Below, in pieces: positions 25,767 to 31,320 of a stretch of 64,000 bases of DNA. A program made the translations under genes and the position numbers. The DNA is from Jatrophihabitans endophyticus (GTDB lineage: Bacteria; Actinomycetota; Actinomycetes; Mycobacteriales; Jatrophihabitantaceae). The stretch spans positions 930,001 to 994,000 of the forward strand of contig NZ_FQVU01000001.1 in assembly GCF_900129455.1 (NCBI RefSeq). The letters are read 5' to 3'. The notes beneath the pieces are model-generated. The model was given only the letters and a program-made list of their open reading frames with translations, was not told the DNA's origin and ran no database searches. How positions within the stretch are numbered: the stretch's first letter is position 1; each line of letters starts with the position of its first letter.

Positions 25767-28700
25767 GTGTCCGTGCCGCTGCACGTCCCGTCGCGTCCGA
25801 TCCGCGTCGTCACCGCGGCCGCGCTGTTCGACGGCCACGACGCCGCGATCAACATCATGCGACGCATCCTGCAGGCCCAGGGCGCGGAGGTCATCCACCT
25901 CGGCCACAACCGGGGTGTCGACGAGGTCGCGATCGCCGCGGTGCAGGAGGACGCGGACGCCGTCGCGATCAGCTCCTACCAGGGCGGGCACGTCGAGTAC
26001 TTCGAGTACCTCGTGCAGACGCTCGCCGAGCGCGGCGCCGGGCACATCCGGGTGTACGGCGGGGGCGGCGGCACGATCGTGCCCGAGGAGATCGAGCGGC
26101 TGCACCGCGCCGGCGTCGCCCGCATCTTCTCCCCCGAGGACGGCCAGCGCCTCGGCCTCGCCGCCATGGTCAACACCATCCTGCGCGAGAGCGACGTCGC
26201 GCGCCCCCGCGACCTCCCGCCCACCGACGCGATCGCCAGCGGCTCGGTCGACGCGCTCGCGCGGGCGATCTCGGCCATCGAGGCCGGCGCGCGTCCGGGC
26301 GACGAGCTGGTCGCGCAGGCCGCGCGGAGCTCGGCCGCGGTGCTCGGCATTACCGGCACCGGCGGCGCGGGCAAGTCGTCGCTGACCGACGAGCTCGTCC
26401 AGCGGCTACGGCTCGACCAGGCCGACAAGCTGCGGACCGCGGTGCTGGCCATCGACCCGAGCCGCCGACGCGGTGGCGGCGCACTGCTCGGCGACCGCAT
26501 CCGCATGAACAGCCTCGGTGACGACCGCGTCTACTTCCGCTCGCTCGCCACCCGCGACAGCGGCTCCGAGGTCCCGAACGGGCTGCCGGACATGATCACC
26601 GCCTGCAAGGCGGCCGGCTTCGACCTGGTGATCGTCGAGACGCCCGGCATCGGGCAGGGCGACTCCGCCATCCACGACATCGTCGACCTCTCGCTGTACG
26701 TGATGACCGCCGAGTTCGGCGCGGCGTCGCAGCTCGAGAAGATCGAGATGCTCGACATCGCCGACGTCGTCGCCATCAACAAGTTCGAGCGGCGCGGGTC
26801 GGAGGACGCGCGGCGCGACGTCGCGCGTCAGCTGGTGCGCAACCGTGAGGCGTTCGGCAGCAGCTGGGAGGACATGCCCGTCTTCGGCACGTCGGCCGCG
26901 AGCTTCGACGACGACGGCGTCACCGCGCTGTACCTGCACCTGCGCGACGAGCTCGCCGGCCGCGGCCTGCCGGTCACCGAGGGGTTCCTGCGCCCGGTCA
27001 CCGGCCGCACCTCCACCGGCGTGTGGACGGCGGTGCCCGCCGATCGCGTCCGCTACCTCGGCGAGGTGGCCGAGACCGTCCGCGCGTACCACGACCGCAC
27101 CCGGCGCGACGCCGAGCTGGCCGGCCGCTGCGAGCTGCACGACCGCGCGGTGCGCGCCCTCGCCGACCTCGACCCCGACGCGGCCCCGACGGCCGCCGCG
27201 GTCGCCACCACGACGGACGTCCTCGCCACGCTGGCCGACGCCGCGCGGGCGGCGATGTCGCCGGCCTCCGTCGCACTGCTCGACGCGTGGCCCGAGGTGC
27301 GCCGCTCCTACGAGGGCGACGAGCAGGTGGTCGTCGTCCGCGATCGCGAGCTGCACACCACGCTGCGGCGACAGACGCTGTCGGGCAGCTCCGTCCCGCG
27401 CGTCGCGCTGCCCCGCTTCGACGACGCCGGGACGCTGCTGCGCTTCCTGCGCTCGGAGAACCTGCCCGGCCGCTTCCCCTTCACCGCCGGCGTCTTCTCC
27501 TTCAAACGCGACAACGAGGACCCCGCCCGCATGTTCGCCGGCGAGGGCGACGCGTTCCGCACCAATCGTCGCTTCCACCTGTTGTCCGAGGGCCAACCCG
27601 CCACGCGCCTGTCGACCGCCTTCGACTCGGTCACCCTCTACGGCCGCGACCCCGGGGAGCGTCCCGACGTGTACGGCAAGGTCGGCACCTCGGGGGTCTC
27701 GATCGCGACGCTCGACGACATGGCGGCGCTGTACGCCGGCTTCGACCTGATCGCGCCCACGACCTCGGTGTCGATGACCATCAACGGCCCCGCACCGACC
27801 ATCCTGGCGTTCTTCCTCAACGCCGCGATCGACCAGCAGGTCGAGGCGTTCACCGCCGAGCACGATCGCGACCCGGACGGCGCGGAGCGCGAGCAGCTCG
27901 CGGCGCGGGTGCTGTCGACCGTCCGCGGCACGGTGCAGGCCGACATCCTCAAGGAGGACCAGGGTCAGAACACCTGCATCTTCTCCACCGAGTTCAGCCT
28001 GCGCATGATGGCCGACATCCAGCAGTGGTTCATCGAGCACGGCGTGCGCAACTTCTACTCGGTGTCGATCTCGGGCTACCACATCGCCGAGGCGGGAGCG
28101 AACCCCATCACGCAGCTGGCGTTCACGCTCGCGAACGGGTTCACCTACGTCGAGTCCTACCTGGCCCGCGGCATGGCGGTCGACGACTTCGCCCCCAACC
28201 TGTCGTTCTTCTTCTCCAACGGCATGGACGCCGAGTACACCGTCCTCGGCCGGGTGGCGCGCCGCATCTGGGCGGTCGCGATGCGCGACCGGTACGGCGC
28301 GAACGAGCGGTCGCAGAAGCTCAAGTACCACGTGCAGACGTCCGGCCGGTCGCTGCACGCGCAGGAGATGTCCTTCAACGACATCCGGACGACGCTGCAG
28401 GCGCTGTGCGCCCTCTACGACAACGCCAACAGCCTGCACACCAACGCCTACGACGAGGCGGTCACCACGCCGTCGGCCGAGTCGGTGCGTCGCGCGCTGG
28501 CGATCCAGCTCGTCATCAACCGCGAATGGGGCCTCGCGCTCAACGAGAACCCGTTGCAGGGCTCGTTCGTCGTCGACGAGCTCACCGAGCTCGTCGAGGA
28601 CGCCGTGCTCGCCGAGTTCGACCGCATCACCACGCGCGGTGGTGTCCTCGGCGCGATGGAGACCGGCTACCAGCGCGGCCGCATCCAGGACGAGTCGATG

Positions 28701-29024
28701 CTCTACGAGCAGCGCAAGCACGACGGCTCGCTGCCGATCGTCGGGGTCAACACCTTCCTCGCGCCCGAGACCGACGAGCCGCCGCGCGCGCTCGAGCTGG
28801 CCCGCGGCACCGACGCCGAGAAGACGTCGCAGCTGCGGCGGCTCGCCGAGTTCCAGACCGCCCACCGCGACGAGGCCGAGGAGGCGCTCGTGCAGCTGCG
28901 CCGCGTGGTCGTCGACGGCGGCAATGTCTTCGCCGAGCTGATGTCGGCCGCGCGGGTGTGCTCGCTCGGCCAGCTGACCGAGGCGCTGTTCGAGGTCGGC
29001 GGCCGGTACCGGCGCAACGTGTGA
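25767..29024 (+). CDS. icmF: Fused isobutyryl-CoA mutase IcmF (B12-dependent)
   Basis: 1085 aa, the full length of IcmF. It interconverts isobutyryl-CoA and n-butyryl-CoA (some members also pivalyl/isovaleryl-CoA) with adenosylcobalamin. Domains: B12-binding (about 10-145, with the base-off motif VTAAALFDGHDAAINIM and VYGGGGGTIVPEEIE); a MeaI-type G-protein chaperone (about 190-410, P-loop GTGGAGKSS, and AIDPSRRRGGGALLGDRIRM); a linker; and a mutase TIM barrel (about 560-1085, with PFTAGVFSFKRDNEDPARMFAGEG, YGKVGTSGVSIATLDDM, ILKEDQGQNTCIF). GTG start with TTTGGAGG 4 bases upstream. Confidence 0.96.
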   Translation: MSVPLHVPSRPIRVVTAAALFDGHDAAINIMRRILQAQGAEVIHLGHNRGVDEVAIAAVQEDADAVAISSYQGGHVEYFEYLVQTLAERGAGHIRVYGGGGGTIVPEEIERLHRAGVARIFSPEDGQRLGLAAMVNTILRESDVARPRDLPPTDAIASGSVDALARAISAIEAGARPGDELVAQAARSSAAVLGITGTGGAGKSSLTDELVQRLRLDQADKLRTAVLAIDPSRRRGGGALLGDRIRMNSLGDDRVYFRSLATRDSGSEVPNGLPDMITACKAAGFDLVIVETPGIGQGDSAIHDIVDLSLYVMTAEFGAASQLEKIEMLDIADVVAINKFERRGSEDARRDVARQLVRNREAFGSSWEDMPVFGTSAASFDDDGVTALYLHLRDELAGRGLPVTEGFLRPVTGRTSTGVWTAVPADRVRYLGEVAETVRAYHDRTRRDAELAGRCELHDRAVRALADLDPDAAPTAAAVATTTDVLATLADAARAAMSPASVALLDAWPEVRRSYEGDEQVVVVRDRELHTTLRRQTLSGSSVPRVALPRFDDAGTLLRFLRSENLPGRFPFTAGVFSFKRDNEDPARMFAGEGDAFRTNRRFHLLSEGQPATRLSTAFDSVTLYGRDPGERPDVYGKVGTSGVSIATLDDMAALYAGFDLIAPTTSVSMTINGPAPTILAFFLNAAIDQQVEAFTAEHDRDPDGAEREQLAARVLSTVRGTVQADILKEDQGQNTCIFSTEFSLRMMADIQQWFIEHGVRNFYSVSISGYHIAEAGANPITQLAFTLANGFTYVESYLARGMAVDDFAPNLSFFFSNGMDAEYTVLGRVARRIWAVAMRDRYGANERSQKLKYHVQTSGRSLHAQEMSFNDIRTTLQALCALYDNANSLHTNAYDEAVTTPSAESVRRALAIQLVINREWGLALNENPLQGSFVVDELTELVEDAVLAEFDRITTRGGVLGAMETGYQRGRIQDESMLYEQRKHDGSLPIVGVNTFLAPETDEPPRALELARGTDAEKTSQLRRLAEFQTAHRDEAEEALVQLRRVVVDGGNVFAELMSAARVCSLGQLTEALFEVGGRYRRNV

Positions 29025-29055: not shown

Positions 29056-31320
29056 CTACGCGGTGCGCTTGCGGGCCTTGTCGGCGTACATCCGCAGGTC
29101 CGCAGCGTGCAGCAGCGCATCGAAGTCGGCTCCGTCGACCGGGTAGGAGCTCGAGCCGACACTGGCCGACACGTCACGCGAGGCGGTGCCACTGCCCAGT
29201 CGGCGGCGCAGCGCACTCGCGGCGTGGGCCGTGAGCGCGGGTGCGGCGTCGCGGTCCAGGTCGGGCAGGACGACGAGGAACTCGTCACCGCCGACGCGGG
29301 CGTACAGCGCGTCGGGACGGCCACCCTCGCGCAGGCGGTCGGCCACCTCGACGAGGACGACGTCGCCCGCCGCGTGACCGTGGCCGTCGTTGACCCGCTT
29401 GAAGTCGTCGACGTCGACGTACAGCAGGCCGATGCCGGTGCCGGCGGCGCGGCTGCGTTCCAGTGCCTCGGTCAGCAGTTCGGCGACCCGACGCCGGTTC
29501 AGCAGGCCGGTGAGGGGATCACGGAAGGCGAGCAGCTCCATCTCGGCGAGATAGGCCTCGGAGCGGGCCCGTTCCTCGGCCAGCTCCCGCTCGGCCTCCA
29601 CGCGGGCGGTGACGTCGTTCTGGATCCCCACGTACTGCACGAGCCGGCCGGTCTCGTCGAAGATCGGTGCGAGCAGGATCTCGTTCCACCAGGCCTCGCC
29701 GGTGCCGTGGCGGTAGTTCACGAGCGTCTCCCGGCACTCCACGCCCTGCTCGATGGCCGCCCTGATGCGGGCGACGGCGGCGGGATCGGTCTCGACGCCC
29801 TGCAGCACCCGGCAGTTCGCCCCCAGGATCTCGTCCGCCCGCAGGCCGGAGAGCCGCTCGAACGCGGCGTTGACGTAGACCAGCGGGTGGTCGGGTCGGG
29901 TCACGTCCGCGATCGAGACGCCGTTCGTCGTCGCGGCGAGCGCACGACGCAGCACCGACACCGACGCGGCGTTCGTCGGGGCCTCCGCCACGTCCAGCAC
30001 GTCGGTGCGCGCCGGGGGCGTGCCGTCCGTGCCCCGGGGTCGGGCGCCGTCCGGTGCCGGGAGCACGCGGGAGAGCAGGGCCTCGGCGGCGGCCGAGACG
30101 ACCTCGCGCTCGTAGGTGAGGGCGAACTCGAAGCGCCGCTCGTGGTCCGGGCCCCGGTCACCGAGGTCGCGCGCCAGCAGGGCGGCCGAGAAGTGCGGAG
30201 CCATGACGACGATGTCCCACTCGTCGCGCAACCGGTCGTCGCCAGGCAGGTCGGCGCCACGCACCCCCGGCGCAGGTTCGGCCGGCAGCCCGGCGCCGAC
30301 CGCGGCCACGAAACCGACCCGCTCGGCCAGCTCGCGGTAACGCCTCGCGGTGGCGGGGGTGAAATGGTGCGCGTACTGGAACGCCGACACGACCACGCAG
30401 GTGGAGCCGTGCGCGAGGGCCTCCCGCTCCAGGTGCTTGCTCAGCTCCACGAGCAGCGGTTTCGACGACCGTCGCAGCACGACGTCCTCGGGCAGGCAGG
30501 CGAACGGCGAGTCGATGTCGCGCGGCAGGTCGCGTTCGGCGAGCTCGAGCACGCCTCGGGGCAGCGCGTTGCTCGGCTCGGCCGCCGGCCTGCCGAACAG
30601 GAACCCCTGACCCAGTCGGGCGCCGAGCGCTCGCGCGATGTCGAGGTGCTTCTCGTCCTCGATCCCCTCGGCGAGGACGACGGCGCCGGTGCGCTGGGCG
30701 TAGGCGTTGACCGCGTTCATGATCCCGGCGATGGCCGGGCTCGGACGGTCCTGAACCAGCTGGATGTCGAGCTTCACGACGTCCGGGCGCAGCAGCGGCA
30801 TGAAGGCCAGCGACATGTCGTCGGCGCCCACGTCGTCCAGGGCGATCTGCCAGCCCGCGCGACGCAGGGTGCGCACGCAGGCGAGCAGTTCGGCCGGCCG
30901 GGCGGCGATCGCCCGTTCGGTGATCTCCAGGACGACGCGCAACCCCTCGGGGGCCGCGTCCGCGATCTCGATGAGCGCGCCGAGCGGTTCGCTGTCCAGC
31001 ACCTCGGGCTCGACGTTCACGAACACCGCCAGCGGCTCGGCGATGCCCACGGCCACCGCGCTGCGCAACGCCTCCCGCCGGCACAGCACGTCGAGCTCGG
31101 CCAGCGCGCCCTGCGTCCGGGCCGCGGCGAAGAGGGCGTCGGGTCGCTCCCACGGGCCGGCCGGGCCGCGGCTGAGCGCCTCGTAGGCCACCACCGTGCC
31201 CTCGTCGAGGTCGACGATCGGTTGGAACACGGTCCGGACGTCGCCCCGGGCGATCAGGTCCGTCACGCCTGCCGGGTCCGTCCCGGCACCCACCGCCACC
31301 ACCTCGTCCGCAACCGTCAC
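29056..31320 (-). CDS. EAL-DICT-LOV-GGDEF protein (light-sensing c-di-GMP turnover)
   Basis: 754 aa, no membrane segment. Order: EAL phosphodiesterase domain (about 20-255; FQPIVDLDEGTVVAYEALSRG, FVNVEPEVLD, LEITERA, LALDD-type IALDDVGADD, VVKLDIQLV, AEGIEDE, QGFLFGRP); DICT domain (about 270-395); LOV/PAS domain (about 455-565) with the flavin-adduct motif GANCRVLQG and NYRHGTGEAWWNEILLAPI; short coil; GGDEF domain (about 590-750) with LTGLLNRRR and RVGGDEFLVVL. Both catalytic domains look intact. The LOV cysteine codon is 29812-29814. EAL before GGDEF is the reverse of the usual order. GTG start with GGGGAGGA just upstream. Confidence 0.93.
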   Translation of the reverse strand: MTVADEVVAVGAGTDPAGVTDLIARGDVRTVFQPIVDLDEGTVVAYEALSRGPAGPWERPDALFAAARTQGALAELDVLCRREALRSAVAVGIAEPLAVFVNVEPEVLDSEPLGALIEIADAAPEGLRVVLEITERAIAARPAELLACVRTLRRAGWQIALDDVGADDMSLAFMPLLRPDVVKLDIQLVQDRPSPAIAGIMNAVNAYAQRTGAVVLAEGIEDEKHLDIARALGARLGQGFLFGRPAAEPSNALPRGVLELAERDLPRDIDSPFACLPEDVVLRRSSKPLLVELSKHLEREALAHGSTCVVVSAFQYAHHFTPATARRYRELAERVGFVAAVGAGLPAEPAPGVRGADLPGDDRLRDEWDIVVMAPHFSAALLARDLGDRGPDHERRFEFALTYEREVVSAAAEALLSRVLPAPDGARPRGTDGTPPARTDVLDVAEAPTNAASVSVLRRALAATTNGVSIADVTRPDHPLVYVNAAFERLSGLRADEILGANCRVLQGVETDPAAVARIRAAIEQGVECRETLVNYRHGTGEAWWNEILLAPIFDETGRLVQYVGIQNDVTARVEAERELAEERARSEAYLAEMELLAFRDPLTGLLNRRRVAELLTEALERSRAAGTGIGLLYVDVDDFKRVNDGHGHAAGDVVLVEVADRLREGGRPDALYARVGGDEFLVVLPDLDRDAAPALTAHAASALRRRLGSGTASRDVSASVGSSSYPVDGADFDALLHAADLRMYADKARKRTA

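Follow-up and report, generated by a model that had tools for sequence, protein, structure and literature searches.

A predicted LadC-like light switch and an EAL-DICT unit in one conserved, apparently uncharacterised actinobacterial protein

The locus

The window, a stretch of 64,000 nucleotides from Jatrophihabitans endophyticus, contains a 754-residue open reading frame (ORF) in which EAL, DICT, LOV and GGDEF domains follow one another from the N to the C terminus (Table 1). An earlier note on this DNA had reported the ORF with its strand left unstated; the ORF is real and Pfam-supported, and it is read from the minus strand. On that strand all four domains match Pfam over their cut-offs: EAL at 6e-40, DICT at 1.3e-11 (PF10069; 45.0 bits against a curated cut-off of 23.8), PAS_9/LOV at 1.1e-16 (residues 473–572) and GGDEF at 1.7e-36. 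The single chain and its unusual EAL-first order, both described earlier, are thus borne out. The plus-strand reading of the same interval was dropped, as it gave no Pfam match. A scan for promoters and terminators at the gene found none.

Table 1. Features of the gene in the window, and family genes with a degenerate GGDEF
Feature	Position	Strand	Details
EAL-DICT-LOV-GGDEF gene	29056..31320	-	754 aa, GTG start; ORF list, Pfam
Ribosome-binding GGGGAGG	31330-31324	-	precedes the GTG start
EAL domain	30586..31260	-	residues 21-245; all 11 catalytic-site residues checked are present; atypical loop 6 (DDVGAD)
DICT domain as modelled	30061..30519	-	residues 268-420 (Pfam core 284-385); predicted PLD-like fold, without HKD
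DICT-LOV spacer	29977..30045	-	residues 426-448; low confidence, poorly conserved
LOV domain	29605..29955	-	residues 456-572; PAS_9 match, PDB LOV matches, alignment
Flavin-adduct Cys503 codon	29812..29814 (reads 29814-29812)	-	translation, alignment
Sensor-effector linker D569-L603	29512..29616	-	35 residues, predicted coiled coil, invariant Glu583
GGDEF domain	29065..29529	-	residues 598-752; catalytic motifs intact
Altered inhibitory site RPDA	29308..29319	-	residues 668-671; RxxD in most relatives
Degenerate GGDEF rows			L092, L094, L097, L102, L103, L105-L108, L111-L113, L115, L121, L123, L125; RxxD kept
Degenerate GGDEF rows, Blastococcus second genes	L071 8278-10125; L076 9224-11065; L095 8297-10165; L119 8291-10144		RxxD kept

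A fused protein with B12-binding, MeaB and acyl-CoA mutase parts (IcmF-like) is encoded convergently (25767-29024, plus strand), and two CoA-transferase subunits lie upstream of the gene on its own strand. The neighbourhood was considered as a clue to function and rejected because the arrangement is not conserved: the eight neighbours in the window occur in 0 of 93 related loci, with a positive control at 93 of 93. In Geodermatophilaceae, the gene lies in 28–35 loci near a cluster of genes that, reading the sequences by eye, we take to be tsnR-, rplT- and infC-like; this points to vertical inheritance, not to function.

A LOV domain with a complete flavin site

The adduct cysteine singled out by the earlier note is confirmed as Cys503. 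That note had named loss of key LOV residues as grounds for giving up its reading; in the alignment that we ran, all seven (N502, C503, R504, Q507, N535, N546 and Q567) are present. Among the matches listed, the adduct Cys is kept in 82 of the 84 LOV-bearing family members and the whole set of seven in 81, the window protein included. A mere redox sensor would not need this photochemical set, which argues against a LOV domain that binds flavin but acts as a redox or general PAS sensor, with no physiological light control. Some LOV-like domains do act without the Cys (RmcA, in PMC8846402), and two Kineococcus paralogues (L115 and L123; L numbers are our own handles) have lost it together with most flavin-site residues. 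The same pair has a degenerate GGDEF as well, and the two species that carry it also hold an intact paralogue; we consider the redox reading highly improbable. In PpSB1-LOV, two extra arginines, R61 and R66, reportedly slow dark recovery. Their equivalents in the window LOV, which we take to be T511 and V516, are not arginines, so ordinary recovery times are expected.

A LadC-like C-terminal half

By sequence, the best PDB match of the C-terminal half is 8c05 (4.1e-41), a LOV-activated diguanylate cyclase in its dark state (MsLadC), and the same entry is the best Foldseek match of the full model (2.4e-24). The alignment to 8c05 spans LOV into GGDEF and is gap-free in the linker. The linker, which PMC10396304 defines as running from the Asp of D(I/V)(T/S) as far as the Leu of DxLT, has 35 residues, equal to the long class of LadCs; the same source gives light activation beyond 10,000-fold for that class and about 15-fold for the 21-residue class. 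AlphaFold predicts a single helix over residues 571–598. Among the 77 rows, window included, in which LOV is accompanied by a GGDEF region, the linker is 35 residues long in 74, 21 residues in two and irregular in one. The short class is found in the distant members L041, L042 and L140, the last of them from outside the window's class and found in the DICT survey described below. Among the matches listed, all 74 four-domain rows with the long linker have Glu583. It aligns with the core-polar Glu132 of MsLadC, a placement made by a chain offset with which Asn139 and Arg218 also agree; Glu132 is described as a destabilising core residue (PMC10396304).

The window protein thus shares with LadC the order of LOV then GGDEF, an adduct Cys with its flavin-site residues, a catalytic GGDEF placed directly after LOV through one of the two LadC linker lengths (35 or 21 residues), the predicted coiled coil and the core Glu position. 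It differs in its I-site, which keeps RxxD in MsLadC, and in its N-terminal EAL-DICT, whereas LadCs are LOV-GGDEF proteins without further catalytic domains; because of this N-terminal half we speak of a LadC-like half and not of a LadC. PMC10396304 likewise sets related LOV-GGDEF-EAL proteins apart from the characterised LadCs and reports that LOV-GGDEF fragments of such larger proteins showed no c-di-GMP synthesis in response to light. Taken together, the 8c05 matches, the 35-residue linker and Glu583 favour light activation of the cyclase over other readings: by analogy with LadC, blue light would most likely switch the GGDEF cyclase on.

Active sites of the two enzymes

The GGDEF motif and metal site are intact (DVDDFKRVND and VGGDEF), and in the EAL domain all 11 of the catalytic-site residues checked, metal site included, are present. 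Among the matches listed, 98 of 101 rows keep all 11, and the nine internal ones (NEEDDKEEQ) are kept in 101 of 101; in the three incomplete rows the differences are confined to the N-terminal end, L124 being cut by its contig and those in L048 and L109 being taken for N-terminal truncation or misalignment. Together with the canonical LOV, these catalytic residues support, at the level of sequence, the earlier proposal of a blue-light-responsive c-di-GMP enzyme. The accompanying statement that both active sites look intact holds for the catalytic residues; it needs qualifying for the GGDEF I-site, broken to RPDA in place of RxxD, and for loop 6 of EAL, which reads DDVGAD where the solved EALs compared read DDFGTG. 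Val164 of this loop is found in 101 of 101 rows among the matches listed. Constitutively active EALs have a canonical DFG-type loop 6, which the window EAL lacks, and given this atypical loop its phosphodiesterase activity is probably conditional.

Among the matches listed, the I-site is lost in three of the 61 rows counted as having an intact GGDEF, namely the window protein, L068 and L098. In MsLadC, some alterations of the I-site increase activity in the dark (PMC12805367), and so for RPDA we predict by analogy a leakier dark state, with activity above that of MsLadC, as well as weak product inhibition.

An EAL-DICT family with repeated loss of GGDEF

A scan of named genomes returned 467 relatives, of which the best 80 by similarity were used, so that the set is biased to window-like members. 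The best 80 of 467 come from Motilibacter, Cellulomonas, Kineococcus, Pseudokineococcus, Quadrisphaera, Nocardioides, Blastococcus, Modestobacter, Klenkia and Geodermatophilus, among others; of nine relatives aligned at the outset, seven are 56–63% identical to the window protein and two 43–44%. The final alignment comprises 101 non-redundant EAL-DICT ORFs, counted after removal of rows that did not differ from one another in their last 300 residues. LOV is present in 84 of these 101 among the matches listed: with a GGDEF counted as intact in 61 (including L098, whose GGDAF should be read as altered), with a degenerate GGDEF in 16, and with GGDEF absent or largely deleted in 7. The remainder are EAL-DICT alone (13) or EAL-DICT with a degenerate GGDEF (4). 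Judged by its sequences, EAL-DICT-LOV-GGDEF is an established family.

The unusual domain order makes most sense if a LadC-type LOV-GGDEF unit is added to a fixed EAL-DICT unit. Actinobacterial EAL-DICT proteins (L138 and L142 and, in the window genome, L043 and L044) share the EAL-DICT unit, L043 being about 61% identical to the window protein across it, and, unlike the window protein, are without the LOV-GGDEF unit. A stand-alone LOV-GGDEF donor for the C-terminal half, sought among a few loci, was not found. In a literature search that reached few subscription papers, no paper pairing EAL-DICT or DICT-LOV in a relevant sense was found, which is a weak sign of novelty. On the EAL-DICT tree, a quick search with long branches, L068 is the sister of the window protein (support 93). 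The record names of L060, L110 and L089 look wrong, as sequences labelled 'Melainabacteria' and 'Streptomyces sp. NP160' group with this actinobacterial family, those of NP160 alongside Quadrisphaera.

Conservation along the chain is lowest in GGDEF, with a median pairwise identity of 0.55 against 0.77 for EAL, 0.75 for DICT, 0.67 for LOV and 0.62 for the helix. Among the matches listed, 16 of the 84 LOV-bearing rows have a degenerate GGDEF and 7 lack it, and the EAL-DICT tree requires at least four changes for the degenerate and at least three for the missing state; read by eye, the degenerate rows fall into about five lineages. Downstream of the 7 GGDEF-less and 13 EAL-DICT rows, a search for GGDEF remnants gave a single significant match, in L122 on the other strand. 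RxxD is retained in every one of the 20 degenerate GGDEFs, 16 of them in LOV-bearing rows and 4 in rows that lack LOV, which suggests their conversion to c-di-GMP sensors; the window GGDEF is the reverse case, with catalytic residues kept and the I-site lost.

Because LOV stays where GGDEF is degenerate or missing, it may have a second target in the EAL half, and light may even act mainly there. On that alternative, light controls the EAL phosphodiesterase and GGDEF is mainly regulatory or c-di-GMP-sensing, as in many GGDEF-EAL hybrids. The retention of EAL, DICT and LOV through the GGDEF losses fits such a scheme, as does the c-di-GMP-binding RxxD of the degenerate domains. So does Synechococcus SL2, a LOV-GGDEF-EAL protein with a light-activated EAL (PMC8846402), which like the window protein joins one LOV and opposing c-di-GMP enzymes in one chain; it differs in order, the window protein having EAL-DICT first, and no DICT is described for SL2-type proteins in the available accounts. 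The window protein itself fits less well, since its GGDEF is the opposite of a sensing one. Its LOV-GGDEF linker, moreover, is of LadC length, but the DICT-LOV spacer is disordered and unconserved (AF2 pLDDT under 50; pairwise identity 0.19 over residues 421–450). We regard primary control of EAL as unlikely here, and activation of the cyclase remains the preferred reading.

Four Blastococcus genomes carry, just downstream of the LOV-bearing gene, a second EAL-DICT gene with a degenerate GGDEF and no LOV (Table 1). In Modestobacter (L114, L117, L118, L120 and L126), GGDEF is entirely lost and the proteins share a C-terminal tail like TDSPGARR.

DICT domains and a predicted PLD-like fold

DICT has been predicted to act in the light response (a prediction cited in PMC8612252); a 2022 review counts it as a sensory domain whose purpose cannot be discerned (PMC8846402). 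We found DICT in 25 of 296 actinobacterial genomes surveyed, and annotated 28 of the 31 matching proteins outside the window genome, several of the ORFs being cut by contig or locus ends. These 28 comprise EAL-DICT (10), EAL-DICT-PAS_9-GGDEF (1), GGDEF-EAL-DICT (1), DICT-GGDEF (2), MerR-DICT (5), DICT-histidine kinase (1), DICT-HD (1), a protein with a sub-threshold Usp match (1) and proteins with no other domain (6). The two further DICT proteins of the window genome are EAL-DICT. In the five MerR-DICT regulators (L129 and L131-L134), DICT is likely the ligand domain of one-component transcription factors.

A model of DICT alone, built with 67 diverse sequences, reached a pLDDT of 95.8 and a pTM of 0.90. 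Its nine best Foldseek matches are FAM83A, TrmB, polyphosphate kinase and Zucchini entries (best E 1.5e-3, probability 0.92–1.00), no match reaching an E of 0.001. By VIA-align, the closest structure is the TrmB ligand domain (2f5t; Z 11.0, 121 residues, 3.5 Å), followed by TrmBL2 (Z 10.9), NucT (10.4), PPK1 (10.0), PLD3 (9.7), Nuc (9.5), Zucchini (9.4) and FAM83 (9.3–9.4). The top matches cover 118–135 of 153 residues and exceed the Z of 7–8 that the tool gives as usual for models without a match. From their titles, we take the rows down to Z 8.3 to be PLD-superfamily, TrmB-type, PPK1 or FAM83 proteins, and presume TrmB, TrmBL2, NucT, PPK1, PLD3, Nuc, Zucchini and FAM83 to be one fold class. 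In agreement, hhalign gives 92% for TrmB against PLDc_2, our positive control; for DICT it detects no profile kinship with either family (1.39% for PLDc_2 and 0.38% for TrmB). As sequence profiles link DICT to neither family, it is the model that carries the fold assignment.

DICT would thus resemble the TrmB effector domain, TrmBL2, FAM83, PPK1 and Nuc in fold (Z 9–11), and differ from PLD-fold domains in sequence and in the HKD motif, which is found in 0 of 67 DICT sequences; TrmB, for its part, carries the domain on a DNA-binding protein. The most conserved DICT residues are E298 (67 of 67), W368 (66), R395 (64), F314 (63) and Q315, R327 and E367 (61 each). The TrmB domain binds sugars (title of PDB 2f5t), from which we propose that DICT binds a ligand; the model suggests a PLD-fold domain without HKD, a pseudo-enzyme serving as ligand sensor. 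A search of titles and abstract openings, mostly outside subscription papers, found no relevant work joining any two of DICT, TrmB and phospholipase D. As modelled, this fold is more surprising than the joining of a LadC-like switch to EAL-DICT.

The earlier note had tied DICT to light-sensing proteins and counted two light-linked modules in the chain. Neither claim is upheld: a photosensor occurs in the same chain in 1 of the 28 annotated actinobacterial DICT proteins, and the DICT model is PLD-like. DICT as a photosensor was rejected on these grounds. The possibility that both inputs are light, with DICT itself photosensory, would accord with the published prediction and with the presence of DICT in a LOV protein here; added to the two points above, no Cys is found among the DICT columns conserved at ≥90%, and we give it very little chance. 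We know of no photoreceptor with a PLD fold.

A proposed two-input model

We think it fairly likely that the protein is a two-input c-di-GMP enzyme, in which light drives synthesis through LOV-GGDEF and an internal signal acts through DICT on breakdown. LOV would bind flavin and form the Cys503 adduct in blue light; the adduct would change the register of the coiled coil in the 35-residue linker and so switch on the GGDEF cyclase, as in LadC, against a background of weak product inhibition and raised dark activity from RPDA. EAL would be a c-di-GMP phosphodiesterase whose activity is set by DICT, itself a catalytically dead PLD-fold domain binding a small ligand or a partner and not light. Light would then favour synthesis, and the internal signal would set breakdown. 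In this scheme the domains, their residues, the linker length, the conservation across the family and the predicted fold come from the analysis itself; we infer the photochemistry, the direction of the light effect, ligand sensing by DICT and the coupling between the halves.

A broader proposal, which we put forward tentatively and find slightly doubtful, is that DICT in general is a dead PLD-fold sensor of the TrmB kind, with a putative pocket formed by E298, F314, Q315, R327, E367, W368 and R395, and that the window protein is a coincidence device for light and a metabolite, light reaching both cyclase and phosphodiesterase. As a ligand- or partner-binding pseudo-enzyme, DICT would have a testable identity, one that would bear on every protein with the domain, from c-di-GMP enzymes to histidine kinases and MerR regulators. 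With its natural LadC-type switches, whose I-site differs, and its naturally occurring GGDEF losses, the family is useful for studying how a single LOV governs two opposing enzymes and for making tools that control c-di-GMP by light.

The window genome has 14 GGDEF and 13 EAL matches and no match to PilZ. RsiG, a c-di-GMP-binding anti-sigma factor, is a possible effector in relatives, its twin-motif form being found in 16 of 16 Geodermatophilaceae species (PMC8325347). Two LOV motifs occur in the window genome by pattern, the second in a LOV-GAF-SpoIIE phosphatase (L158 871-3024, G000:C2).
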